Assembly (NCBI GenBank): GCA_028685815.1
Contig: JAQUDG010000010.1
Location: forward strand, 1 to 40,408
DNA: 40,408 bases
Source: Desulfuromonas sp.
Lineage (GTDB): Bacteria; Desulfobacterota; Desulfuromonadia; Desulfuromonadales; Desulfuromonadaceae
Direction of reading: 5' to 3'
Every line of letters starts with the position of its first letter. The first letter of the stretch is position 1. The notes under the pieces are model-generated. The model made no database searches and was not told the origin of the DNA. It was given only the letters and a program-made list of their open reading frames with translations. Below are positions 4,738 through 26,368 of the stretch, one piece after another. The position numbers were made by a program, and so were the translations under genes.

Positions 4738-6018
4738 TCAGCTTTTAGCCAACGCCTGCTCTATGTCCGCAATGATATCATCTATGTGTTCGATCCCCAC
4801 CGACAGGCGGATAAGGTCGGGCAAGACGCCGGAGGCCAACTGTTCTTCAGGGCTGAGTTGGCGGTGGGTTGTGCTGGCAGGATGGAGTACGCAACTGCGC
4901 ACATCGCCTACATGTACAACCATGGCAATCAATTGCGTTGCTTCCATAAAGCGGCGTCCAGCATCAATTCCCCCTTTGATTCCAAAGGTCAGCACCCCAC
5001 CTCCTCCTTTGGGAAGATATTTGCAGCTCAGAGGGTAGCTCGGGTGTGATTGTAAGCCAGGGTATGAAACCCAGCTCACTTTGGGGTGCTGTTCCAGAAA
5101 CTTAGCTATCTGTAGGGCGTTGGAGCAGTGTCGCTCCATGCGTACGTGCAGAGTTTCGAGACCATGATTGAACATAAAGGCGTTCATTGGGCCCAGACAC
5201 ATCCCCAGATCACGCAGTAATTGAACCCTAGCCTTGACAATATAAGCCGTCGCACCGAATTTTTCCGTAAAACGCAGGCCGTGGTAGCTAGGGTCTGGTT
5301 CGGTCATTTCAGGGTATTTATCTGCGCTCCATTCGAATGTTCCGCCATCGATGATTACTCCGCCGACGCTGGTGGCATGGCCATCAATGTATTTAGTTGC
5401 GGAATGCACCACGATGTTGGCGCCCAATGTCAGCGGGTTGCACAGGTATGGAGTGGGAAAGGTATTGTCGATAATCAGGGGAACCTGCATTTGTCTGGCC
5501 ACCGTGGCAAACTTCTCAAAATCGAGGACGTTGAGTCCAGGATTCCCGATGGACTCGGCATACAGGAGGCGCGTTTCTGGAGTGAACTTGGCTTTAATCT
5601 CTTCAATGCTGGCGTCGGGATCAACACTGGTGAAACCTATCCCCATCTTGGAAAAGGTGTTGTGAAACAGGGCATGGGTTCCTCCATAGAGGGTGCTGGC
5701 ACTGACAATGTGCTGGCCGCTGCTGCAGATGTTCAGGATAGCCATAGCTATCGCCGCCTGCCCCGAAGATGTTGCCAGCGCTCCGACACCCCCTTCGAGT
5801 TGAGCCATTTTTGCTTCAAACGCAGCCCAGGTTGGATTGCTTATACGAGTGTACATGTGGTCGGCACAGTCTAGATCGAACAGACTCGCAATATGGTCAG
5901 CTTTTTCATATTTATACGTAGTGCTCTGGGTGATGGGAACTATGCGCGGTTCGGTAGCTTTGGGGCGATACCCCCCCTGTATGACTAAGGTTTCAGTCTT
6001 CCAATTTGGATTGATCAT
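4738..6018 (-). CDS. metY: O-acetylhomoserine sulfhydrylase (aminocarboxypropyltransferase)
   Basis: This 426-residue PLP enzyme of the Cys/Met metabolism family makes homocysteine from O-acetylhomoserine and sulfide (direct sulfhydrylation route to methionine). Visible landmarks are TETLVIQGGYRP at the N-terminus, YTRISNPT, the cofactor-stacking YGGTHALF, DNTFPTPYLCNP, and SATKYIDGH with the PLP-binding lysine. The length and the long middle segment are typical of MetY rather than the shorter MetB/MetC. AGGAG lies about 7 bases before the ATG. I looked for a SAM riboswitch in the leader and did not find one. Confidence 0.93.
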   Translation of the reverse strand: MINPNWKTETLVIQGGYRPKATEPRIVPITQSTTYKYEKADHIASLFDLDCADHMYTRISNPTWAAFEAKMAQLEGGVGALATSSGQAAIAMAILNICSSGQHIVSASTLYGGTHALFHNTFSKMGIGFTSVDPDASIEEIKAKFTPETRLLYAESIGNPGLNVLDFEKFATVARQMQVPLIIDNTFPTPYLCNPLTLGANIVVHSATKYIDGHATSVGGVIIDGGTFEWSADKYPEMTEPDPSYHGLRFTEKFGATAYIVKARVQLLRDLGMCLGPMNAFMFNHGLETLHVRMERHCSNALQIAKFLEQHPKVSWVSYPGLQSHPSYPLSCKYLPKGGGGVLTFGIKGGIDAGRRFMEATQLIAMVVHVGDVRSCVLHPASTTHRQLSPEEQLASGVLPDLIRLSVGIEHIDDIIADIEQALAKS

Positions 6019-6743: not shown

Positions 6744-7538
6744 ATGAAATGTTTTCGGTACGTCTGCGTCTGTTTTTTCCTAGTACTGGCGATGGGTACT
6801 TATGCCAGTGCCGTGGATATGGGGATGCTCTCCAATGATGACTGTGTCAAATGTCATATCAATGCAGTAAAGGATGTCGATGCCCACGGTGCAGCTCATG
6901 CGCTCATGGGTTGCCAAGATTGTCACTTTGAGCACCCCCCCTTGGGTGAAAATGTGATTCCAGCCTGCGCATTGTGTCATGCCCCCGCAGACAGCGAGCA
7001 CTATACCCTGGAAAATTGTGCTGGATGCCATCATCCACACCACCCTCTTGTGATAGATTTCTCAACCCTAGGCAAGGTGAAGCCCGCATGTCTGAGCTGT
7101 CATCCGGCTCAAGGTAAAGAGATGCAGGAACATCCAAGCATGCACGCCGAACTTGATTGTAGCGCATGCCACTCTGGGCACGGTTTAGGCGCAGGGCAGT
7201 TCCTGAATTGTCTCGATTGTCACTCAGGTCACTCTGCTGAGATGGTAGTTGCGGACTGTACCAAATGCCATAAAGCACACAGTCCGGTTGAGGTCACCTA
7301 TGCTGATAGCCTACCCTCAGTCCTATGTGCTTCATGTCATGGTGCGGTAGCCACTGATCTCAAGGCATCAAGTAAAAAACACTCTGAGCTCACCTGCGCT
7401 TACTGCCATATGGGCGAGCATAAGAACGTTACTGCCTGCGCTGATTGTCATGGTGCGGCGCCCCATGGCAAGGCTATGCATATCAAGTTCCCCAACTGCG
7501 TAGAATGTCATGTTAATCCGCATGCTTTGGCGGAATAA
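6744..7538 (+). CDS. Periplasmic dodecaheme cytochrome c
   Basis: This 264-residue protein has a signal peptide (MKCFRYVCVCFFLVLAMGTYASA) and 12 CXXCH motifs: CVKCH, CQDCH, CALCH, CAGCH, CLSCH, CSACH, CLDCH, CTKCH, CASCH, CAYCH, CADCH and CVECH. They are spaced as three tetraheme units. Further His residues (HSGH, HKAHSP, HHPHHP) can serve as distal ligands, so most hemes are probably bis-His. The open frame extends upstream, but the ATG at 6744 has GAGGAGG upstream and starts the signal peptide. Its closest relative in the window is the next gene, whose last 12 hemes align with this protein throughout. The role is probably periplasmic electron transfer; the partner is unknown. Confidence 0.9.
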   Translation: MKCFRYVCVCFFLVLAMGTYASAVDMGMLSNDDCVKCHINAVKDVDAHGAAHALMGCQDCHFEHPPLGENVIPACALCHAPADSEHYTLENCAGCHHPHHPLVIDFSTLGKVKPACLSCHPAQGKEMQEHPSMHAELDCSACHSGHGLGAGQFLNCLDCHSGHSAEMVVADCTKCHKAHSPVEVTYADSLPSVLCASCHGAVATDLKASSKKHSELTCAYCHMGEHKNVTACADCHGAAPHGKAMHIKFPNCVECHVNPHALAE

Positions 7539-7579
7539 AGAGAAGTGCTTAGCTGCAAATAAGTAAGTAGTTGGATCGG

Positions 7580-7613
7580 CGGCTGCGGTATTTGTTTTGT
7601 GGTGCCGCAGCCG
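7580..7613. terminator. Strong hairpin between the first two cytochrome genes
   Basis: CGGCTGCGG (7580-7588) and CCGCAGCCG (7605-7613) form a perfect 9-bp stem, extendable inward with A-T and G-U pairs. There is no U-run after it on either strand, so it is more likely an mRNA-processing or stability element, or a partial attenuator, than a classic terminator. Confidence 0.45.
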
Positions 7614-7740
7614 TCCCAGTTCTGGACTATTCCAGGATGAATTTGGTGTGATTCGGGGGAGGTGGGCGCAGGTTGATCTGAGCGCTGCCACCGCGAACAC
7701 CGTCGCTAGTAAGCAATAAAGCTGCCACGAAGACCCTAGC

Positions 7741-9090
7741 ATGAGAGCTGTCATGATAAACAATGTGCCTGTGCATAAAAATTTGACCAGAATGTGCGTA
7801 GATATAAGCACTTACGTGGGCTTGTGTATTTGCGTGCCCCTGGTTGTTGTGCTGCTGTTGAGTGCGGGATCAGCGCTGGCAGAAGTGGTGGAAAAGCCTT
7901 TGCTTGATGCGGACTGCATTAAGTGCCACGTCGAACCTTCAGTGCAGATTGCGGAGCACGGCGGCGGGCATCGTACTGCGTTAGGATGTTTTGATTGCCA
8001 CATAGGGCACCCTCCCGCGGCAGAGGCGATTATCCCCGCATGTGCGGACTGCCATGTCCCCGCCGAACATGAACACTATGCACTGGAAGGGTGCGCACGT
8101 TGTCATGTGACGCATGCCCCGGGGGTTGGTGATCTGGCAAAGGTAAATGCAGATGTGCCTGCTGTGTGTTTTACCTGTCATCATGGTGTGGATGTGGAGC
8201 TAAAAGAAATGCCGAGCATGCATGCCGATATGGCCTGTACCGACTGCCACGTGCGCCACGGGCTTGCCGAGGGTGATTTTATGCAGTGCATGCAATGTCA
8301 TGAACCGCATGCAGACACCATGGGTTACACCGATTGTATCGGCTGTCATGCACCACATCAGCCGACCGATTATCGCTGGAGCAAGAAGACCCCTGTGCAG
8401 CAGTGTGCAGCCTGTCATGCAACAGAAGTGGAGAACCTAGCCCGTGTCGGAGGGGCGCATGCTAAAAAAGTTACTTGCAGCGCCTGTCATGCTGATCACC
8501 CCCCTGCTAAAACGGGAGTAATCCCTCTGTGTGCAGAGTGCCATGCGCCGAAGAAATCTGCTCACTACCGCGTAGACAATTGTGCCGCCTGTCATGACCC
8601 CCATGCCCCGATGGAGATTCGTTTGGACGCTGTTTCCCCAGTAAAACCGGTGTGCCTATCGTGCCATGCTGGACCTGGTAAGGAGATGGAGCAACATCCG
8701 AGTATGCATGCCGAGATGGATTGCACGGAATGCCATGCCGAACACGGCAGCGCATCCAGTTGCCTCGATTGTCACTCTGGGCATTCAGACTCAATGACCT
8801 ATGCGCAATGCTTCCAGTGCCATCAGCCCCACAGTCCTAGCTATGTCCAGTATAAAAAAGGGAAGGTAGAGCCTGAATTGTGTGGCAGTTGTCATGCCGA
8901 AGCTTACACCCTGATTGAAGGGAGCTCTACTAAGCATGGCGCGCTGTCGTGTGTGTTCTGCCACCGCCGCACCCACAAGGTGATATTGGAATGTCAGAGC
9001 TGTCACGGTCAACCTCACGATGCTGCTATGCACCGTCAGTTCAGTGATTGCGCCAAGTGCCACCGTGGTGGGCATGATTTGCGCAAGTAG
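7741..9090 (+). CDS. Periplasmic 20-heme cytochrome c
   Basis: This protein of up to 449 residues carries 20 CXXCH motifs after a signal peptide whose core is VGLCICVPLVVVLLLSAGSALA. Hemes 1-8 and 9-16 are two related octaheme halves. Each contains a HPP motif after its second heme, then P-E/K-x-x-HY before its fourth heme, and SMHA before its sixth. Hemes 17-20 form a tetraheme tail like the tail of the upstream 12-heme protein, so the architecture is octaheme + octaheme + tetraheme. The start is uncertain: ATGs at 7741, 7753 and 7792 all lack a clear ribosome binding site; 7741 gives a basic N-region. It lies about 200 bases after the previous cytochrome gene and 36 before the next. Confidence 0.88.
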   Translation: MRAVMINNVPVHKNLTRMCVDISTYVGLCICVPLVVVLLLSAGSALAEVVEKPLLDADCIKCHVEPSVQIAEHGGGHRTALGCFDCHIGHPPAAEAIIPACADCHVPAEHEHYALEGCARCHVTHAPGVGDLAKVNADVPAVCFTCHHGVDVELKEMPSMHADMACTDCHVRHGLAEGDFMQCMQCHEPHADTMGYTDCIGCHAPHQPTDYRWSKKTPVQQCAACHATEVENLARVGGAHAKKVTCSACHADHPPAKTGVIPLCAECHAPKKSAHYRVDNCAACHDPHAPMEIRLDAVSPVKPVCLSCHAGPGKEMEQHPSMHAEMDCTECHAEHGSASSCLDCHSGHSDSMTYAQCFQCHQPHSPSYVQYKKGKVEPELCGSCHAEAYTLIEGSSTKHGALSCVFCHRRTHKVILECQSCHGQPHDAAMHRQFSDCAKCHRGGHDLRK

Positions 9091-9126
9091 GCGATAATTT
9101 CCTTATGAGTCCTTATGAGGCATACA

Positions 9127-9966
9127 ATGAATTTCAGGTACAAGTTTAAAAAAGGTACGCTTAAAGCAGGTGCGGCGTTTGTCTGTGCGGCAATATTGCT
9201 GAGCGTGAGTATCCCGGCGTTTGCGGATATCTACACCCAGGAGATACCTCCGCTAACGGATGTAGAATGTGCGCAGTGCCATGTACCGGTATATGCAGAC
9301 CTTAAAGAGCGTGGCGGAGCACATCAAATGGGATGCCGTGAGTGCCATGCAACCTTCCATAACTTCAGGCGTTCCTTGACCTGGGAGGAGCGTGTGCCTG
9401 GGTGTCAAGAATGTCACGGTACGCCCCACGGAGAACAGGACCCTATGGGCACCTGTCTTGTGTGCCATACAAACTCCCACGCTCCCGCAACAAGTCTAAG
9501 TTCTGCTGAGCTTGAGCCCTATTGCAGCCAGTGTCATCAATCGCAGACTGCCCAGCTAAACAATCCCAGTGCACATACGGATATGGGGTGTGTTGGCTGT
9601 CATGCTGGCGCGCACGGTTATGTGCCGGATTGCACCGAATGTCATGTGGAGCCACACAATCCATTCAAGAGCAACGCCGCATGTACCAGCTGTCATCCGG
9701 TGCATGATGTCAGTGGGCTCAATTACGGAACCCATATTGAAAATGAGGGTTGCAGTTACTGTCACAGCACCCAGGCGCAAGACCTCGGCGCTGGGCATCT
9801 GGCTCACTCCATGCTGAACTGCACGTTTTGCCATGCTGGTACCCACGGTAAAGTGCCCACGTGTCAGGAGTGCCATAATACTCCACATACTTCAGAGATG
9901 CTCGAAGAGTTCAGCGGCTGCGCAGACTGCCATGGTAATGCGCACAACTTGCTGCCCGGATATTAA
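9127..9966 (+). CDS. Periplasmic dodecaheme cytochrome c (second type)
   Basis: This 279-residue protein has a signal peptide (KAGAAFVCAAILLSVSIPAFA) and 12 CXXCH motifs: CAQCH, CRECH, CQECH, CLVCH, CSQCH, CVGCH, CTECH, CTSCH, CSYCH, CTFCH, CQECH and CADCH. It reads as three copies of one tetraheme unit, each with the order CxxCH, then H-M/D-x-G/N-CxxCH, then P-x-C-x-x-CH, then CxxCH. This unit resembles the C-terminal tetraheme tails of the two cytochromes upstream. An in-frame ATG lies at 9115, but the ATG at 9127 has GAGG at proper spacing. It belongs to the same cluster as its neighbours and probably shares their electron-transfer role. Confidence 0.88.
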   Translation: MNFRYKFKKGTLKAGAAFVCAAILLSVSIPAFADIYTQEIPPLTDVECAQCHVPVYADLKERGGAHQMGCRECHATFHNFRRSLTWEERVPGCQECHGTPHGEQDPMGTCLVCHTNSHAPATSLSSAELEPYCSQCHQSQTAQLNNPSAHTDMGCVGCHAGAHGYVPDCTECHVEPHNPFKSNAACTSCHPVHDVSGLNYGTHIENEGCSYCHSTQAQDLGAGHLAHSMLNCTFCHAGTHGKVPTCQECHNTPHTSEMLEEFSGCADCHGNAHNLLPGY

Positions 9967-9986: not shown

Positions 9987-11114
9987 ATGACAGCGAAAAA
10001 AAAGCTTCTGGTGAATATCTTCCTCTTGCTGGTGTGTGTCACCATTGCGGGGTTGGCGGTCTTGTACAATTACAGCTACAAAATATGCTGGCATTGCGAC
10101 ACAGACGACTACTATGAACGTGGCCGGGCATTTGTGTGCAAGGAGAAGGAAGAGCTGCGCGAGTCGGGACTGGACTTCTTGCGTCTTGCTGCATCAAGGC
10201 AACAGGTGGGGGCGCAACTGCTCCTAGCGGAATGCTATGTGGGGCAACTGCCTCAAGGGTACACTCCGGTTGACGAGCGTGCCTACGCGTGTCTTGCAAC
10301 CAGCCTGGTTACCAACACTGCAGCAGCAAGGCAGTTTTTTAACAAAGCCCACGCGACCCTCGCCACTAGGGAAGGGGTAGAGCCAAAAGTGCAACATAAT
10401 CTCGGTTTGCTACTGGAGGCCGGAATACTCGAGGCTCAAGATGCGCCGCAATTGGCGTTGGAGTACTTTACTCTCGCCGCGCGACAGAGTTACTTTCCTG
10501 CTATGCAGCATTTGGGGATGCTTTACCATAACCGCAGCGCTTACGTCGAGGCGCGTACTTGGTTAGAGCAGGCGGCGGCTCAACACAAAGATATGCAACC
10601 AGCCTTGCTGCTAGGGGACTACTATATGCAAGGCAAGGGTGTGGCTATCGAACTTGAGAAGGCCATGCACTGGTATCGTCAGGCGCTGCTCACGGCTAAA
10701 AAAACTAGCGTCGGGCTTGCCCAGAATGTACAACTTGCTGCAGAAGATGTCCCACGTGCGCGTATGGACATGGCGATGCGCAAACTCCAGCAGGAGCGCA
10801 TGTTTAAGTTTATGACACTGTATTACAGCGTTGGTGGGGATGCTTCAACCTACGAAGTGTACTGCGAGGATAGTCCCGGACTGATGATAGGGACTGTGGA
10901 ACGCAACGTTGAAGGTGTAGTCGCCAACCTGGCTCCGGGGCTAAAACGTTCTGCTGCGGTCGTGACGCCACAAAAGACCTTTAGTTCCATGAATAAGGGG
11001 CTCGATTGGGTCTTGACGGCGTACGCCAAGGGGCGCTATGGCGACTTTACTAAGTTTGATTTCCGCCTACGTAGCCCGCAGGCTAGAGACGGAAACAGGT
11101 TAGATACTGAATAG
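9987..11114 (+). CDS. Membrane-anchored Sel1/TPR repeat protein in the cytochrome cluster
   Basis: This 375-residue protein has one N-terminal TM anchor (LLVNIFLLLVCVTIAGLAVLY), so the rest is probably periplasmic. The middle carries helical repeats of Sel1/TPR type: VQHNLGLLLEAG, ALEYFTLAARQSYFPAMQHLGMLY, ARTWLEQAAAQ, ALLLGDYYMQGKGV and KAMHWYRQALL. The C-terminal third has no recognisable motif. It contains CWHC near residue 34, but no His follows, so this is not a c-heme site; it could be a metal site or disulfide. It starts 20 bases after the last cytochrome gene with AAGGTGAT upstream, so it is the last gene of the cluster. Such scaffolds often assist assembly; that role is inferred. Confidence 0.75.
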   Translation: MTAKKKLLVNIFLLLVCVTIAGLAVLYNYSYKICWHCDTDDYYERGRAFVCKEKEELRESGLDFLRLAASRQQVGAQLLLAECYVGQLPQGYTPVDERAYACLATSLVTNTAAARQFFNKAHATLATREGVEPKVQHNLGLLLEAGILEAQDAPQLALEYFTLAARQSYFPAMQHLGMLYHNRSAYVEARTWLEQAAAQHKDMQPALLLGDYYMQGKGVAIELEKAMHWYRQALLTAKKTSVGLAQNVQLAAEDVPRARMDMAMRKLQQERMFKFMTLYYSVGGDASTYEVYCEDSPGLMIGTVERNVEGVVANLAPGLKRSAAVVTPQKTFSSMNKGLDWVLTAYAKGRYGDFTKFDFRLRSPQARDGNRLDTE

Positions 11115-13642: not shown

Positions 13643-15484
13643 ATGAAGAGAGGAGTTTCCTTGAGGTTGACGGTGCTTGCCATCGCTGCCATTATGATGT
13701 TGGGCGGAGTCCAGGCAGGGATGGCGGATACGCAGACTTGCCTGATGTGCCATGAAAGCGCGGTAGATTCGCACCAATTTATGGAGTCTGCGCATGGGCG
13801 TAGTGGCATTGAATGTATCGCGTGCCACGTGCTTGAAGATGTCAGCGCCCACATGGAACTCGAGGAGATGCCGGCCACGGTGGACTGTGCCTCCTGCCAT
13901 GCTGATATCGCCGAGCAGCATGATACCAGCGTACACGCACAGATGGGCTTGGAGTGCGTAGCGTGCCACTATTCTATCCACACCCTGCAAAGTGCTTCAG
14001 GAGCGAAACAGGATACCGTAGCTGCCTGCGCTGTCTGTCACGATGCGCAAGCATACAAAATGTCTGTGCATGGCCAGGCGGTTGCATCTGGAAATCAGGA
14101 TAGTGCTTCCTGTATCGACTGCCACGGCGCGCACAATGTGATCGCTCTGTCTGACGCTGATACCAAGTTAGCCAGAAGCTTCCGCGCCGATGTGTGTATT
14201 GCATGTCATGCTGATACGGAGAAAATGGAGCGCAACTCCATTCGCACCGATATCGTATCCACTTATCTGGATAGCTACCACGGTAAAAGCTACCATCTTG
14301 GATACCCGGAACTTACTGCTACCTGCTCTGACTGTCATGGCAGCCACGCCGTGCTGGCGGAAGAAAATCCGGCTTCAACCATCAACATAAACAACCGAGA
14401 TCAGACCTGCGGCGCGTGCCATGAGGGCTCTACCTCGCTCTTTAGCATGTTCTACTCTCACGCTAATCATTCCGATTTTGGACGTTATCCTGTTCTGGTT
14501 ATCACTTTCTGGGCGATGACTACGCTGCTAGTCGGCACCTTCTCGGTGTTCTGGCTCCACTCCATCATGTGGATGATTCGCGGTATCAGGGAGAATAAAG
14601 AGAAAAAGGCTGCCCTTGCCAGCGGAGAAGCACATATCCATATACCCGATGGGCATACGCTTTATCGGCGTTTTGAGCGGCGGCATATCTTCATGCATCT
14701 GCTGGTCATTATCAGCTTTTTGCTACTGTCAGTTACCGGACTTCCGCTCAAGTTTTATAGCCAGCCGTGGGCAAAGGTGATGATTGATTTCTTCGGTGGT
14801 ACCGCAAATGCCGCGTATCTGCATCGCGTGGGTGCGGTCATAACCTTTGTGTACTTTGCTATGGCGCTGGTGATGAGTTTCCACTTCCTCTTCATCCGAA
14901 AAGATCTTCCTGGGATGTGGCTGCAGCGCCTGTTCGGGCCAGATTCATTGATGCCGACATTTCGCGATGTGCGAGATGTTACTGGGATGGTACGCTGGTT
15001 CCTCGGCAAGGGGCCCAAGCCCACGTTTGAACGCTGGACCTACTGGGAGAAATTTGACTTTATCGCGGTATTCTGGGGTATGTTTGCTATCGGTGGATCA
15101 GGGCTCATGCTGTGGTTCCCTGCGTTCTTCGGCACCTTCCTCCCTGGCTGGGTGTTCAACGTAGCCACCATTGTGCACTCGGATGAAGCGTTGCTTGCGA
15201 CTGGATTTATCTTCTCGGTTCACTTCTTCAATACCCACTTACGTCCGGAAAAATTCCCTATGGACTTTGTGGTTTTTAACGGCGAATTGCATAAGGAAGA
15301 ATTCCTTGAAGAACGTGGAGATCAGTGGCGGCGTTATGAGGAGCAGGGGATTACAGAGCAGTTCCTGAAACCGAAACAATCCAGCCCTGTATATAACGTT
15401 GCTCTGCGAACCTTTGGTTTCATTGCAGTAGCCATTGGAGTGACCCTCTTCTTTTTAATTGTTATCTCGTTCCTTGGTGGATAA
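13643..15484 (+). CDS. Nonaheme cytochrome c fused to a cytochrome b membrane domain (CbcL-like architecture)
   Basis: This 613-residue protein has a signal peptide, then a periplasmic region of about 250 residues with nine CXXCH motifs (CLMCH, CIACH, CASCH, CVACH, CAVCH, CIDCH, CIACH, CSDCH, CGACH), then about six TM segments. The membrane part resembles di-heme cytochrome b subunits of the formate dehydrogenase/hydrogenase type. Candidate b-heme histidines are RRHIFMH, YLHRVG, SFHFLF, IVHSDEA and SVHFFNTH. The layout is that of Geobacter CbcL, an inner-membrane quinol dehydrogenase used for low-potential electron acceptors; function here is inferred from layout. AAGGAG precedes the start. 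A terminator follows, so it is probably transcribed alone. Confidence 0.85.
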   Translation: MKRGVSLRLTVLAIAAIMMLGGVQAGMADTQTCLMCHESAVDSHQFMESAHGRSGIECIACHVLEDVSAHMELEEMPATVDCASCHADIAEQHDTSVHAQMGLECVACHYSIHTLQSASGAKQDTVAACAVCHDAQAYKMSVHGQAVASGNQDSASCIDCHGAHNVIALSDADTKLARSFRADVCIACHADTEKMERNSIRTDIVSTYLDSYHGKSYHLGYPELTATCSDCHGSHAVLAEENPASTININNRDQTCGACHEGSTSLFSMFYSHANHSDFGRYPVLVITFWAMTTLLVGTFSVFWLHSIMWMIRGIRENKEKKAALASGEAHIHIPDGHTLYRRFERRHIFMHLLVIISFLLLSVTGLPLKFYSQPWAKVMIDFFGGTANAAYLHRVGAVITFVYFAMALVMSFHFLFIRKDLPGMWLQRLFGPDSLMPTFRDVRDVTGMVRWFLGKGPKPTFERWTYWEKFDFIAVFWGMFAIGGSGLMLWFPAFFGTFLPGWVFNVATIVHSDEALLATGFIFSVHFFNTHLRPEKFPMDFVVFNGELHKEEFLEERGDQWRRYEEQGITEQFLKPKQSSPVYNVALRTFGFIAVAIGVTLFFLIVISFLGG

Positions 15485-18839: not shown

Positions 18840-19369
18840 TTAGCAGTCCTCGTATTATATGCAGGGTTTTTTATGTTTTCTCAGAAAATTATTGACTATC
18901 GCAGTGGGCATTGCTCAGGGCTTTTTCATGCGGTCCAAGGTGCGAATTTAATGTATGTGAAATTTATACACTCTTAAACTGTGACTGTACAGTGTAATAT
19001 GGGTCCGCTGTGGTTCAGCGGTGGAGTTCAAGGCGCTGAAATCTGGTTGCATGAGCTTGAGTTGAAGGGTTAATTCGCATCCTTTTGCGTCGAAATCATG
19101 GTGCGGTGGAGGCTGTTTCTAGGCACCGACACCTGTAATGCCCAGCCTACTTTCGCTTAAGGGGAGGTTTAACCGCATTGACCTAGCTATAAGGTTGACA
19201 AGATTGCCTTCTTCTTAACAGTATGCATAGTTTTGTACAAAGAGTTTTAAGTGCGGTATAGGTAAACATGGTCATGGAATATTGGGGGAGTCGGCAGAAC
19301 GAGATCGTCGGCTGCATTTAATGGATGCATAGAATTATATGGTATGAAGGAAGGAGCTGCGGTACGAAG
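18840..19369. other. 530-bp divergent intergenic region upstream of the heptaheme cytochrome
   Basis: It should contain promoters for the response regulator (-) and for the cytochrome/b/sensor operon (+). Visible elements are a hairpin CCGCTG/CAGCGG near 19014-19030, the palindrome CTGTACAG near 18984-18991 followed by TAATAT, and TTGACA at 19195-19200 without a good -10. A weak GG-N10-GC match near 19100 is poor as a sigma-54 site. No gene is seen. Confidence 0.5.
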
Positions 19370-20404
19370 ATGAAACGGATTATGTTATGTAGTGCAGTTG
19401 TGATGCTTCTTACGGCGTGGAGCGTAACCGGCCTGTGGGCTATGGAAACTGCTGACTGCCTGGGATGTCACAACTATGCGGATGAAGTGGGCGACATGAA
19501 CCATGTCGATGAGGTAAAATTTATGGCGACGGCGCATGCTGACATGGGGTGTGATGCGTGTCATGCGGTAACGGAAGAGCATCCGTTTGACGCCGAGACG
19601 GTGGACGCTAGCTCTTCGTGTGACGATTGCCATGCTTCCATTCACAAGACCTATGACACAAGTATTCATGCAGACAAAGCTAGCTGTGTAGACTGTCATA
19701 ACCCGCATGAAGCGTATGCTCCGGTCAATCTGTCTGGAAGGCAGATGAATGATGCATGCGACATGTGCCATGATATGAATGATATGGAAGCGGTACACTC
19801 ACGCTGGTTGCCTGAAACCGGAGTTCATCTCGATGCGGTTCCCTGTATAACCTGCCACAGCTCATCAGATGCTTTTTCCATTACCCTTTACCTGCGCCAT
19901 CGTGATCGTCCGTACACAGATTACGAACTGGCTAGCTATTCTGCCCTGCAGCAGCAGACAGGTTCAGAGGACATCGCCTCTATTATTGATCTGGATGGAG
20001 ATGGTATTATTTCCATCAATGAACTCAATGCGTTTTACGCCAACAATGCACAGCACGGCATGCGTTTGTGGGCCATGATGACTCCTGAGGATGTGGCGCA
20101 CGACTTCACTACCTTTGACAATCGCTGGGATTGTACTTACTGTCACGCCGCTGGCCCCGAAAATATGCAGGAATCCTACCTGGCACTGCCACAGGCAGAT
20201 GGCACTTACAGGCGGTTGCCGTTGGCACAAGGTGCCACCCTCGATGCTCTGTTTGGCACGCCGGACTTCTATATGGTGGGAGCCACCAGGAGCAGCGCCC
20301 TGAATATAGTTGGGTTTTTGATTATACTGGGCGGGTTTGCAATGCCGGTAGGGCACGGAACGTTGCGTTTCCTGACCCGTAAAAATCGCAGAAAGGATCA
20401 CTAA
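19370..20404 (+). CDS. Heptaheme cytochrome c with an EF-hand loop and C-terminal membrane anchor
   Basis: From the ATG at 19370 the protein is 344 residues. It has a signal peptide (MLCSAVVMLLTAWSVTGLWA) and seven CXXCH motifs: CLGCH, CDACH, CDDCH, CVDCH, CDMCH, CITCH and CTYCH. Between hemes 6 and 7 lies a canonical 12-residue EF-hand loop, DLDGDGIISINE, with calcium ligands at positions 1, 3, 5, 9 and 12. A TM segment near the end (LNIVGFLIILGGFAMPVG) and a basic tail anchor it in the inner membrane. The next gene starts four bases later and encodes a cytochrome b, so the two probably form one quinol-linked complex. An upstream ATG (19325) is less likely because it precedes the signal peptide. 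Confidence 0.85.
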   Translation: MKRIMLCSAVVMLLTAWSVTGLWAMETADCLGCHNYADEVGDMNHVDEVKFMATAHADMGCDACHAVTEEHPFDAETVDASSSCDDCHASIHKTYDTSIHADKASCVDCHNPHEAYAPVNLSGRQMNDACDMCHDMNDMEAVHSRWLPETGVHLDAVPCITCHSSSDAFSITLYLRHRDRPYTDYELASYSALQQQTGSEDIASIIDLDGDGIISINELNAFYANNAQHGMRLWAMMTPEDVAHDFTTFDNRWDCTYCHAAGPENMQESYLALPQADGTYRRLPLAQGATLDALFGTPDFYMVGATRSSALNIVGFLIILGGFAMPVGHGTLRFLTRKNRRKDH

Positions 20405-20408
20405 TATT

Positions 20409-21047
20409 ATGGCCACGCAAGAACGGATATATTTAACCCCGACGCCAGTTCGAATCTGGCACTGGTTGAATGCGCTGGGTTTTGTCACTCTGATCACCTC
20501 AGGGGCGCAGATCCGCTTCCCTGACTATATCAATATCTTTGGTACCTACCGAGCGGCGGTAAGTTTGCACCACACTGCAGGTATTGTGGTTACAGTCTCT
20601 TTTGTACTTTGGCTGTTTTACTACGGTGTAATTGCCAGAATGCTTTTTAAACTCTACCTGCCTACCGGTGAAGATCTGAAGAGTGGCGCAGTAAAACAAG
20701 CACTGTACTACTTCTTCTACTATTTTACCGGGACGCGGGAGAATCCGCACCAGGAGTCACCGACCAATAAATTTAACCCTATGCAGAAAGGTGCTTACGT
20801 GGTTATCATGATGCTGATAGTGCCTGTGGTGATCGTAACCGGTATTATCCTGCTGAACATGGGGTCACTGCATAATGTGCTGGTAGCGGTAGGCGGTGTG
20901 CGTGTGGTGGCGGGGGTACATTTCCTTTTGGCGTGCGCTTTGACGGCTTTTATTCCTACCCACTTCTACCTTGCGACCTTAGGACATACACCATTCGCCC
21001 ACTTTAAGCCCATGTGGACTGGCTGGGAAGAGCACGGCGACCACTGA
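20409..21047 (+). CDS. Cytochrome b subunit (b561 / FdnI-like), partner of the heptaheme cytochrome
   Basis: This 212-residue protein has about four TM segments: WHWLNALGFVTLITSGAQI, AGIVVTVSFVLWLFYYGVI, VVIMMLIVPVVIVTGIILLNMG and AGVHFLLACALTAFIPTHFYLA. His residues in RIWHWLN, SLHHTAG, VHFLL and PTHFYL are candidate b-heme ligands, as in hydrogenase, formate dehydrogenase and thiosulfate reductase membrane subunits. It would carry electrons between quinone and the heptaheme protein. AAAGGA precedes the ATG. A strong terminator follows, separating it from the sensor gene downstream. Confidence 0.87.
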   Translation: MATQERIYLTPTPVRIWHWLNALGFVTLITSGAQIRFPDYINIFGTYRAAVSLHHTAGIVVTVSFVLWLFYYGVIARMLFKLYLPTGEDLKSGAVKQALYYFFYYFTGTRENPHQESPTNKFNPMQKGAYVVIMMLIVPVVIVTGIILLNMGSLHNVLVAVGGVRVVAGVHFLLACALTAFIPTHFYLATLGHTPFAHFKPMWTGWEEHGDH

Positions 21048-23499: not shown

Positions 23500-25500
23500 G
23501 TGTTGCAATATATACGTAAGCGTGATGGCAGGCTGGTTGACTTCGAAGTAGATAAAATCAGTGCTGCAGTTAAAAAAGCGGTTCGGGCTGTGGGTGGGCA
23601 CGATATGGAAAAAGCGCAGAGTATAGCGCTTCAGGTGGTGAATACCTTGACGGTTATCTTCAAGGACAAACAGGTCCCCACCGTGGAAAACGTACAGGAT
23701 CTGGTTGAAAAGGAACTAATAGAGGCCGGACACGCGCGTACTGCTAAAGCATATATCCTCTACAGGCAACAACGCGAACAGTTGCGTGCCACTCACTCCT
23801 TTATGCAGGAATCAATCGAAGCCATTGATTCCTACCTGACCCAGGAGGACTGGCGTGTCAAAGAGAACGCCAACATGGGCTATTCGCTGCAGGGTCTTAA
23901 TAACCATATAGCCTCCAATATTACGAGTAATTACTGGCTCAACAAAATTTATCCCGCCGAGGTGTCCGAAGCGCATAAAAATGGAGACTATCATATCCAT
24001 GACCTTGGCATGCTTTCAGTGTATTGCTGTGGTTGGGATCTGAAGGATCTGCTGCTACATGGGTTTACTGGAGCTTACGGAAAAATTCAAAGCGCACCTG
24101 CTAAACATTTTCGTACCGCTCTGGGGCAGATGGTCAACTTTTTCTATACCCTGCAAGGAGAGGCGGCCGGAGCTCAGGCGTTCGCCAGTGTTGATACGTT
24201 GCTGGCCCCTTTTATCCGCTATGATGGGCTTGAATACGCAGATGTAAAGCAGGCGATGCAGGAATTTATCTTCAACATGAATGTGCCGACCCGGGTCGGA
24301 TTTCAAACGCCGTTTACCAATATCACCTTAGATATGACCGTGCCGCGCAATATGGCACATGAGGGGGTAATTATCGGTGGTGCGGTACAAAATGAAGCCT
24401 ACGCTGAATTTCAGGCCGAAATGGATATGTTTAACCGGGCGTTCTGCGAAGTTATGATGAGCGGGGATGCTTCTGGGCGCATATTTACCTTTCCGATCCC
24501 CACGTATAACATAACTTCAGAGCTCGATTGGGAGAGCGACCGTCTCAGGTCTGTCTGGGAGATGACGGCGAAATACGGAACGCCGTATTTTAGTAATTTC
24601 ATCAATTCGGACATGGATCCAGAAGATGCGCGCTCCATGTGCTGCCGGCTGCGCCTCGACAACCGCGAGTTGCGCCGCCGTGGGGGCGGGTTGTTTGGCT
24701 CCAATCCCCTTACCGGCTCAACCGGGGTGGTAACCCTGAATTTGCCTCGGGCTGCGTATCTGGCGCGCACTAAAGAGGAGTTCTTCGCTCGCTTAGGAGA
24801 GTTGATGGCCCTAGCAGCAGCTTCGCTTGAAATAAAACGTAAGCAGCTTGAGCGTTTTACCGAAGACGGTCTGTATCCCTACAGCAAGTTTTATTTAGCG
24901 GGTATCCATGCGCGTCAGGGGCGCTACTGGGATAATCACTTCTCCACCATTGGGCTTATCGGTATGCACGAAGCGGCCTGCAATCTAATCGGTGCTGGGA
25001 TAGATACCCCTGCGGGACATGCGCTAGCGCTGGAAACCTTGGAATACATGCGCACACGCCTGGAAGAGCTGCAGACCCAGACGGGGCATCTCTACAACCT
25101 TGAAGCAACCCCAGCCGAAGGGACCAGTTTCCGTTTGGCGCAGCGCGACCGTGAGGAGTTCCCCGACATCTGCACCTCTGGAGAAGAGCAGCCATACTAT
25201 ACAAACTCGACCCAGTTGCCAGTCGGGGGCACAGATGACATTTTTCAAGCCCTGCAACATCAAGATGCGTTGCAAATAAAGTATACGGGGGGCACTGTGT
25301 TTCATGGGTTTCTGGGCGAGCGTCTGGAGGATTGGCGCAGTGCGCGTCTGTTGGTGCGCCGCATAGCGGAAAACTTCAAGTTACCGTATTTTACTATTAG
25401 CCCAACATTTACCATCTGTCCGGTACATGGATATATTGCCGGAGAGCACTTTGATTGTCCCCATATGGCATCGACCGATGACGCGGATAAAGCCGCATAA
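23500..25500 (+). CDS. nrdD: Anaerobic (class III) ribonucleoside-triphosphate reductase, main body without glycyl-radical tail
   Basis: This 666-residue protein, with GTG start and GGGGAGG upstream, makes deoxynucleotides without oxygen. It has an N-terminal ATP-cone (YIRKRDGRLVDFEVDKISAAV), the core motifs YHIHDLGMLSVYCCGWDL, MCCRLRLDNREL, GGGLFGSNPLTGSTGVVTLNLPR, LYPYSKFYLAG and TNSTQLPV, and the start of the C-terminal zinc-binding region, ICPVHGYIAGEHFDCP. It stops just there. The usual remainder of the zinc site and the glycyl-radical segment (R-V-x-G-[FY]-x-R-P) are absent from this ORF and are encoded by the next, separate ORF at 25520. nrdG follows. The three genes form an operon. 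Confidence 0.93.
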   Translation: MLQYIRKRDGRLVDFEVDKISAAVKKAVRAVGGHDMEKAQSIALQVVNTLTVIFKDKQVPTVENVQDLVEKELIEAGHARTAKAYILYRQQREQLRATHSFMQESIEAIDSYLTQEDWRVKENANMGYSLQGLNNHIASNITSNYWLNKIYPAEVSEAHKNGDYHIHDLGMLSVYCCGWDLKDLLLHGFTGAYGKIQSAPAKHFRTALGQMVNFFYTLQGEAAGAQAFASVDTLLAPFIRYDGLEYADVKQAMQEFIFNMNVPTRVGFQTPFTNITLDMTVPRNMAHEGVIIGGAVQNEAYAEFQAEMDMFNRAFCEVMMSGDASGRIFTFPIPTYNITSELDWESDRLRSVWEMTAKYGTPYFSNFINSDMDPEDARSMCCRLRLDNRELRRRGGGLFGSNPLTGSTGVVTLNLPRAAYLARTKEEFFARLGELMALAAASLEIKRKQLERFTEDGLYPYSKFYLAGIHARQGRYWDNHFSTIGLIGMHEAACNLIGAGIDTPAGHALALETLEYMRTRLEELQTQTGHLYNLEATPAEGTSFRLAQRDREEFPDICTSGEEQPYYTNSTQLPVGGTDDIFQALQHQDALQIKYTGGTVFHGFLGERLEDWRSARLLVRRIAENFKLPYFTISPTFTICPVHGYIAGEHFDCPHMASTDDADKAA

Positions 25501-25519
25501 CAAAGTAAGGAGTATAGCT

Positions 25520-25663
25520 ATGGAACAGAAATGTAAGCATAAAACAGAAGTATATTCAAGAGTTTGTGGTTTCTTCCGTCCAGTACAGCAGTGGAATAAA
25601 GGTAAGCAGGAAGAGTTCGATCAGCGCCGCGAATACGTAGTTGATAAAATAGAGCGACAGTAA
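25520..25663 (+). CDS. Separately encoded NrdD glycyl-radical domain
   Basis: This 47-residue protein contains KTEVYSRVCGFFRPVQQWNK followed by GKQEEFDQRREY, which is the C-terminal glycyl-radical segment of class III reductases; the radical Gly should be the G of RVCGFFRP. A leading KCKHK matches the second half of the zinc site of fused NrdD proteins. AAGGAG with 7-8 bases spacing precedes the ATG, and it starts 20 bases after the nrdD stop and ends 10 bases before nrdG. It should join the main NrdD chain as an exchangeable radical subunit, as YfiD/GrcA does for pyruvate formate-lyase (analogy, inferred). Its frame differs by +1 from nrdD. Confidence 0.85.
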   Translation: MEQKCKHKTEVYSRVCGFFRPVQQWNKGKQEEFDQRREYVVDKIERQ

Positions 25664-25672
25664 GGGGCATCT

Positions 25673-26368
25673 ATGCCGATCAAGGGGTTCCAAGGCACCA
25701 GCCTACTCGATTATCCAGCACATATAGCATCCTTGGTATTCTACTCTGGGTGCAATATGCGCTGTGCATACTGCCATAATGCTGCTCTGGTAGAGACACC
25801 AGAGGCGTATCCAGACATCTGCGCCGAGGATCTATTCGACATGGTGGCGGCGCGGCGTGGATTTATCGATGCAGTTGTAATTTCCGGCGGCGAACCCACC
25901 TTGGATAAAACAATGCCGCAGTTGGTGGAGCGCCTGAAATCTCTTGATTTGCTGATAAAACTCGATACCAATGGTTTAAAGCCACAGGTGGTCGAGGCGC
26001 TGTTGCGAAAAAATTTGCTAGATTTTGTTAGCCTTGATCTTAAAACAGCACCGGAACGTTATTCCGAGCTAGGGGCGCCAACAAATGCTGCTGCGACTCT
26101 GCGCGCAAGCATCGCGCTTCTTGCCGCCGCTGACATTGAGATCGAGTTTCGCACCACATGTATGCCCGGATATGTCGAGATGGAGGATATCCATGCGGTG
26201 GGCGAGTTGATTGAGCGCGCGGGGCCATGGGTGTTGCAACAATTTGTACCCGAGTACGCTCTGGCAGAAGATGCCCGTGTGGTGGTGCCTCATTCTAAGG
26301 CAATGATGCAAGAACTCCTTGCCGCCGCAAGTCCGTATGCCGATACGGTAACCCTGCGCGGTTTGTAG
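25673..26368 (+). CDS. nrdG: Anaerobic ribonucleotide reductase activating protein (radical SAM)
   Basis: This 231-residue enzyme has the radical SAM cluster motif CNMRCAYC at about residue 27, then ISGGEPTLD and LDTNG. N-terminal GFQGTSLLDYPAHIASLVF is typical of NrdG/PFL-activase proteins. It would cleave SAM and abstract hydrogen from the NrdD glycine, which here lies on the 47-residue protein encoded just upstream. AAGGGG precedes the ATG, 10 bases after the preceding stop. Confidence 0.93.
   Translation: MPIKGFQGTSLLDYPAHIASLVFYSGCNMRCAYCHNAALVETPEAYPDICAEDLFDMVAARRGFIDAVVISGGEPTLDKTMPQLVERLKSLDLLIKLDTNGLKPQVVEALLRKNLLDFVSLDLKTAPERYSELGAPTNAAATLRASIALLAAADIEIEFRTTCMPGYVEMEDIHAVGELIERAGPWVLQQFVPEYALAEDARVVVPHSKAMMQELLAAASPYADTVTLRGL

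Follow-up and report, generated by a model that had tools for sequence, protein, structure and literature searches.

An octaheme-repeat series of putatively exported multiheme cytochromes in a Desulfuromonas locus and its relatives

Known cytochrome wires gain length either through polymerisation of protomers or through repetition of a triheme unit. Such repetition gives the 12 and 27 hemes of GSU1996 and GSU2210 of Geobacter, for which a role as periplasmic wire or capacitor has been proposed (PMC10138318), and OmcX homologs with 11–12 hemes have been proposed as filament formers encoded beside OetABI, with high expression in ANME partners (PMC5539420; PMC10553843). Large multiheme cytochromes are also known from ANME, with 86 motifs in ANME-2c (PMC9012536). 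Here we describe three neighbouring cytochrome genes (A, B and C) in a stretch of 40,408 nucleotides from Desulfuromonas sp. (contig JAQUDG010000010.1; hereafter the window), together with their relatives, some of which are giants of 49–77 hemes. Like GSU1996 and GSU2210, each product is a single chain of repeated heme units, but the Geobacter proteins are strings of triheme c7 units, each containing a single His-Met heme, and spend 26 residues per heme, whereas A, B and C are built of tetraheme and octaheme units with a second His at every heme and about 19.5 residues per heme. The small tetraheme cytochromes (Cytochrom_c3_2) have PF14537 in common with A, B and C, but are single tetraheme proteins rather than concatenated ones; the MtrA/DmsE decahemes are likewise bis-His wires, but have 10 hemes and no fold match to our model of A; and the ANME large cytochromes reach heme totals comparable to those of the giants, but carry S-layer and other domains that the giants lack. 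The closest named candidates for the A and C dodecahemes are the OmcX homologs of Geobacter and of ANME-partner sulfate reducers, which form a tandem pair of ~12-heme proteins near Oet/OmcS-type clusters, as does an A/C-type pair on contig C166; from heme number and gene context, the dodecaheme pair from which A, B and C would derive is probably of the OmcX type. The open-licence OmcX literature makes no mention of a 20-heme or 49–77-heme form, and we found no description of an octaheme-repeat series in the open-licence literature; large cytochromes and repeated triheme wires are already known.

The CXXCH counts of 12, 20 and 12 in an earlier note on this DNA agreed with our own (Table 1). N-terminal signal sequences were present on all three proteins and a lipobox was absent from the window copies. 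The ribosome site of A is AGGAGG, and orthologs suggest that the true start of B may be the Met at 7792. The chains are compact, at about 19.2–19.6 residues per heme, and all three exceeded the Pfam gathering cut-off of 25 for PF14537 (Cytochrom_c3_2; 40.6, 67.0 and 46.3 bits for A, B and C, respectively), a match that assigns them to the cytochrome c3/c7 superfamily. An NCBIfam search of A, B and C returned no equivalog at its cut-off. The MtrA/DmsE decaheme family (TIGR03508, cut-off 192.2) was considered and rejected, with scores of 28.9 (A), 65.3 (B) and 24.5 bits (C) and heme counts of 12, 20 and 12, as was membership among the c7 polymers, with a period of 4 and 8 and none at 3 or 6, and with TIGR04257 missing all three proteins.

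Table 1 Features of the cytochrome locus and its surroundings in the window.
Feature	Coordinates	Strand	Basis
O-acetylhomoserine sulfhydrylase gene, upstream neighbour	4738..6018	-	NCBIfam TIGR01326 above cut-off
A: secreted dodecaheme cytochrome, units I-II-T	6744..7538	+	264 aa; 12 CXXCH, signal peptide
15-bp hairpin between A and B	7577..7613	+	RNA fold, region z-score -2.5
B: secreted 20-heme cytochrome, units I-II-I-II-T	7741..9090	+	449 aa; 20 CXXCH
C: secreted dodecaheme cytochrome, diverged I-II-T	9115..9966	+	283 aa; 12 CXXCH, unit profiles
D: membrane-anchored Sel1-repeat protein, conserved CxxC	9987..11114	+	Sel1 match; co-conserved with C
CbcL-like inner-membrane protein	13643..15484	+	9 CXXCH, predicted TM helices, C-terminal membrane domain
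7-heme cytochrome, pairs with next gene	19325..20404	+	
Cytochrome b561-type membrane subunit	20409..21047	+	PF01292

To assess the repeat structure, inter-heme linkers were compared at each heme lag against permuted linkers, with CXXCH excluded, so that motif spacing does not explain the periodicity recovered. Linkers resembled one another at lags of 8 and 4 in B (P = 0.0005 and P = 0.014, respectively) and in A (P = 0.0125 and P = 0.04), and at a lag of 4 in C (P = 0.0055), with no other lag significant in any of the three. Unit identities, computed without the C/C/H residues of the motifs, placed A1, B1 and B3 in one type (type I; A1 is 40% identical to B1 and 39% to B3), A2, B2 and B4 in a second (type II; A2 is 41% identical to B2 and 40% to B4) and A3 and B5 in a tail type (28% identity). 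Across same-type units identities were ~33–41% (33–38% for the repeats inside B), and out-of-register stretches mostly gave 12–25%, the exception being stretches shifted by one heme, which still have most of the unit in common. The similarity of the units thus goes beyond CXXCH spacing, and the alignment of B hemes 9–20 with A hemes 1–12 proposed in the earlier note held (39, 40 and 28% for B3, B4 and B5 against A1, A2 and A3), with hemes 1–8 of B matching the first octaheme of A as well as the second octaheme of B does. The same note had taken C for three copies of the tail-type unit, which the profiles contradict: C2 is clearly type II and C3 clearly tail, C1 is closer to type I than to the tail by a narrow margin in profile–profile comparison, and the 12-heme profile of A covers the whole of C. 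C is, on these profiles, a diverged A-type protein, and the general rule read from the unit comparisons is (I-II)n-T, tetraheme types I and II in alternation with a tail at the end, with n = 1, 2 and 1 in A, B and C.

Conserved histidines allow the ligation of the hemes to be read directly. An alignment of the 12-heme module across 99 sequences has among its invariant columns the 12 motifs and exactly 12 further His, one per heme, which rules out the His-Met heme per domain of the c7 polymers; in C, 12 motif and 13 other His were invariant, in B there were 21 other invariant His, and in eight giants a His was present in all linkers except one. These residues would provide bis-His ligation at every heme, with which a wire of variable length, as the earlier note had envisaged, is consistent. 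An AlphaFold2 model of A from the 99-row alignment of the 12-heme module reached a pLDDT of 91.8 and a pTM of 0.77; a model of B built with 13 orthologs was poor (pLDDT 48) and was set aside. Compared with solved structures, the model of A had no significant fold match, the weak nearest folds being NrfH and the Shewanella small tetraheme cytochrome (1m1p). In sequence–profile searches the best solved structure was 6r2q chain A (E = 1e-11), which we take to be MtrA (the label of the file differs), and the Geobacter dodecaheme 3ov0 and others matched at E values of 1e-10 to 1e-11, all of these profile matches being at the level of the superfamily.

Across relatives, heme counts fit whole units, with 154 of the 169 complete family members carrying exactly 8, 12 or 20 hemes (eight proteins with a different spacing pattern, of the 26-heme type and similar, were left out of the 169 by hand), against a multiple of four in 7 of 45 unrelated multiheme proteins from the same loci. 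The 26-heme proteins gave a weak family-profile score and were rejected as members, their spacing pattern being different. The counts in the family form a ladder of 8, 12, 20, 49, 53, 57, 65, 73 and 77 hemes. Ten giants have 4k+1 hemes, and they do so because of one common extra heme, which lies in the seventh unit counted from the C-terminus, where the spacing runs 24,12,18, and is followed by the same 24 hemes; a giant of 72 hemes has this extra heme and has lost one heme elsewhere. Three further non-fitting counts were explained by a fusion (25 hemes) and a giant split between frames (54 and 16 hemes). The former is an apparent in-frame fusion of B without its tail to an 8-heme C (L067, 6845-8692), and the latter a giant in two overlapping frames, probably through a frameshift in the metagenome assembly (L166, 3244-7457). 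One 10-heme family member (L081, 1826-2473) departs from the tetraheme count.

An 8-heme indel shows the gain and loss of entire blocks directly. The B orthologs at loci L170 and L171, from related species, are ~85% identical and have a common signal peptide, and one of them lacks precisely eight hemes, in frame, with the breakpoint falling on the heme-3 motif, in a stretch homologous between units I-1 and I-2. Both sequences are metagenome assemblies; exact repeats in the longer gene reach 11 bp at most, so an assembler is unlikely to have produced the 12-heme B by collapsing repeats. A tree of single tetraheme units, with short columns and many weak forks, set type I apart from type II and tail and grouped unit types and positions across species; units of the giants clustered, across species, by position counted from the C-terminus, which makes the N-terminal part the variable one. 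Together, the clean indel, the ladder and the tree bear out the growth by whole-unit duplication that the earlier note had proposed, and refine its tetraheme view in that the main unit of growth is, from these comparisons, the octaheme (type I + type II). The 20-heme proteins of three other genomes, ordered I-II-II-II-T by spacing, are on this evidence independent expansions by a different route (L041, 9089-10390; L042, 8673-9929; L047, 8963-10288); they lie beside 9- to 14-heme cytochromes.

Within the family of the window (Desulfuromonadaceae), the A-B-C order with 12, 20 and 12 hemes recurred in 12 other genomes (in one of which the contig stops within C); the only sampled genome of the same genus had A and a truncated B. 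Loci labelled Desulfobulbaceae, and similar ones, carried 12/20/12 or 12/20/8 hemes, the 8-heme C having the spacing of C without its middle unit. Twenty hemes were counted for B in every one of 12 orthologs from the same family and at nine loci of Desulfobulbaceae type. In other Desulfuromonadales a single giant gene stands before C in place of A and B, with 77 (three genomes), 73, 72, 65, 57 (three), 53 or 49 hemes; the giants consist only of the repeated heme unit, two of them are carried by contigs at least about 3.5 Mb long (G032 and G051), and a 57-heme one belongs to Malonomonas rubra DSM 5091, a cultured species. Behind C, the gene for D is present in A-B-C loci as well as in five giant loci (the Malonomonas-type giants had no D match), and an M1 peptidase gene adjoins an A-B-C locus and also giant loci, so that those giants occupy a syntenic place. 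In a phylum-wide sample, the module was found in 48 of 395 genomes, mostly as adjacent A-type and C-type dodecahemes, which suggests that the 12+12 pair is the ancestral state. The homologs examined in other families of the class did not have the ExtABCD context of an ExtB porin with 5-heme and 12-heme lipoproteins.

The surroundings of the genes point towards extracellular electron transfer. In the window, no porin adjoins the A-B-C cassette and an OetABI-type cluster is absent; in several Desulfuromonas-type genomes, A-B-C-D is followed by genes for a likely porin, for a protein with 10 hemes and for a 10–13-heme lipoprotein. An A/C-type pair on contig C166 of the window's own genome is accompanied by a likely beta-barrel porin, a PPIase, an LpoB/CsgG-like protein and a 26-heme lipoprotein, a cluster resembling the Oet/OmcS-secretion clusters (PMC10553843; PMC5539420; PMC12977616), and an OmcS homolog (E = 1e-60) is encoded close to one A-type gene. 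This Oet/OmcS-like setting and the porin-type neighbours support a putative role in extracellular electron transfer. The stretch of C166 at locus L037 (558-10968) encodes 12-heme, 12-heme lipoprotein, beta-barrel, PPIase, 26-heme lipoprotein and 7-heme products; at another locus (L196), two cytochromes beside the A/C pair had no match to solved structures. The CbcL-like protein of the window has CbcL architecture as in PMC9129911 and is a likely electron source; a histidine kinase and a sigma-54 regulator are encoded beside it. Its gene, a two-component system and the pair of 7-heme and cytochrome b561 genes all lie downstream of the A-B-C cassette. D has Cys34 and Cys37 conserved in 98% of homologs, in a CxxC that lies after the membrane anchor, and may serve these cytochromes in assembly or docking. 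The strong hairpin between A and B, with no T-run behind its stem, is possibly an RNA processing or attenuation site and could allow expression of A to differ from that of B-C-D. A minus-strand ORF similar in size to the sulfhydrylase gene lies upstream of A in related loci. Further along the window (23500-26368) are an ordinary anaerobic ribonucleotide reductase gene and, downstream of it, a radical-SAM protein gene.

With moderate confidence, we favour the reading that A, B and C are exported and serve as wires in extracellular electron transfer, having descended from an A/C-type dodecaheme pair by unit recombination. They would be soluble exported multiheme wires of one tetraheme fold, (I-II)n-T, and bis-His ligation at each heme together with the minimal chain makes one continuous heme stack per protein most likely. 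Electrons would probably run from inner-membrane quinol oxidases (for example, the CbcL-like protein) through A, B and C to outer-membrane porin–cytochrome conduits. The ancestor would have been a pair of dodecahemes of A and C type, with B and the 49–77-heme giants arising from an A-type protein as homologous units recombined, usually an octaheme at a time, and with the N-terminal unit and the tail kept as caps during expansion. Of this scheme, the repeats, the distribution of heme counts, the conserved ligands, the order of the genes and the single 8-heme indel are observed; heme stacking, the direction of flow, location and selection on length are what we infer.

For scale, MtrA with 10 hemes measures about 104 angstroms (PMC4245776), and GSU1996 with 12 hemes about 12 nm, going by a title cited in PMC9129911. 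At ~1 nm per heme, extended A and C would thus span ~12 nm, B ~20 nm and the giants 49–77 nm. The periplasm is usually 20–30 nm wide. B alone could about bridge this width and extended giants would exceed it, so that a periplasmic bridge is the first choice for A-B-C, and the giants may act as an extracellular cable; a purely periplasmic role would sit badly with extended giants. Giants too long for the periplasm, if extended, would suit a different arrangement, in which dodecahemes of OmcX type would build filaments, and B and the giants would be covalent chains of the same protomer acting outside the cell, all the more as OmcX homologs beside OetABI are proposed filament formers (PMC5539420; PMC10553843) and an A/C-type pair adjoins an Oet/OmcS-type cluster. 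However, the resemblance to OmcX is one of context and heme number, the window genes are not adjacent to a secretion block and a Sec signal is no evidence for crossing the outer membrane, and we regard this arrangement as unlikely. Were the additional hemes to provide charge capacity rather than reach, the proteins would act as periplasmic electron stores, a capacitor role that has been put forward for GSU1996 and further periplasmic cytochromes rich in heme (PMC10138318) and one that the large heme totals in all loci would suit; but expression level alone could raise capacity, and the conserved order of unlike lengths (12, 20, 12) suggests specific roles, making storage a quite improbable account. 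That length is without function, heme-rich stretches merely expanding through neutral repeat instability, is very improbable: recombination between repeats clearly occurs and giants range from 49 to 77 hemes, yet B keeps its 20 hemes across the orthologs and loci counted above, and its repeats have diverged as far as they have with all ligands kept, which argues that length is maintained.

Returning to exported wires as the preferred reading, we suggest tentatively, as a possibility for the giants, that they are single-polypeptide wires reaching tens of nanometres if extended, with the octaheme repeat number setting length and recombination adjusting it. If so, they would correspond to polymerised cytochrome filaments with the protomers covalently linked, and the window's 20-heme B would be the short member of the same series. 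At a locus that is syntenic for the most part, duplication and deletion of the compact bis-His octaheme block have produced natural forms with 12, 20 and 49–77 hemes, including in Malonomonas rubra, a cultured species; the series would thus offer a natural experiment on length versus conduction, storage and reach across the envelope, in a family that would record how evolution lengthens a biological wire. Outside the family, ORFs of over 2700 aa with 45 and 57 CXXCH were also seen (L102, 6605-14836; L109, 1727-10036).
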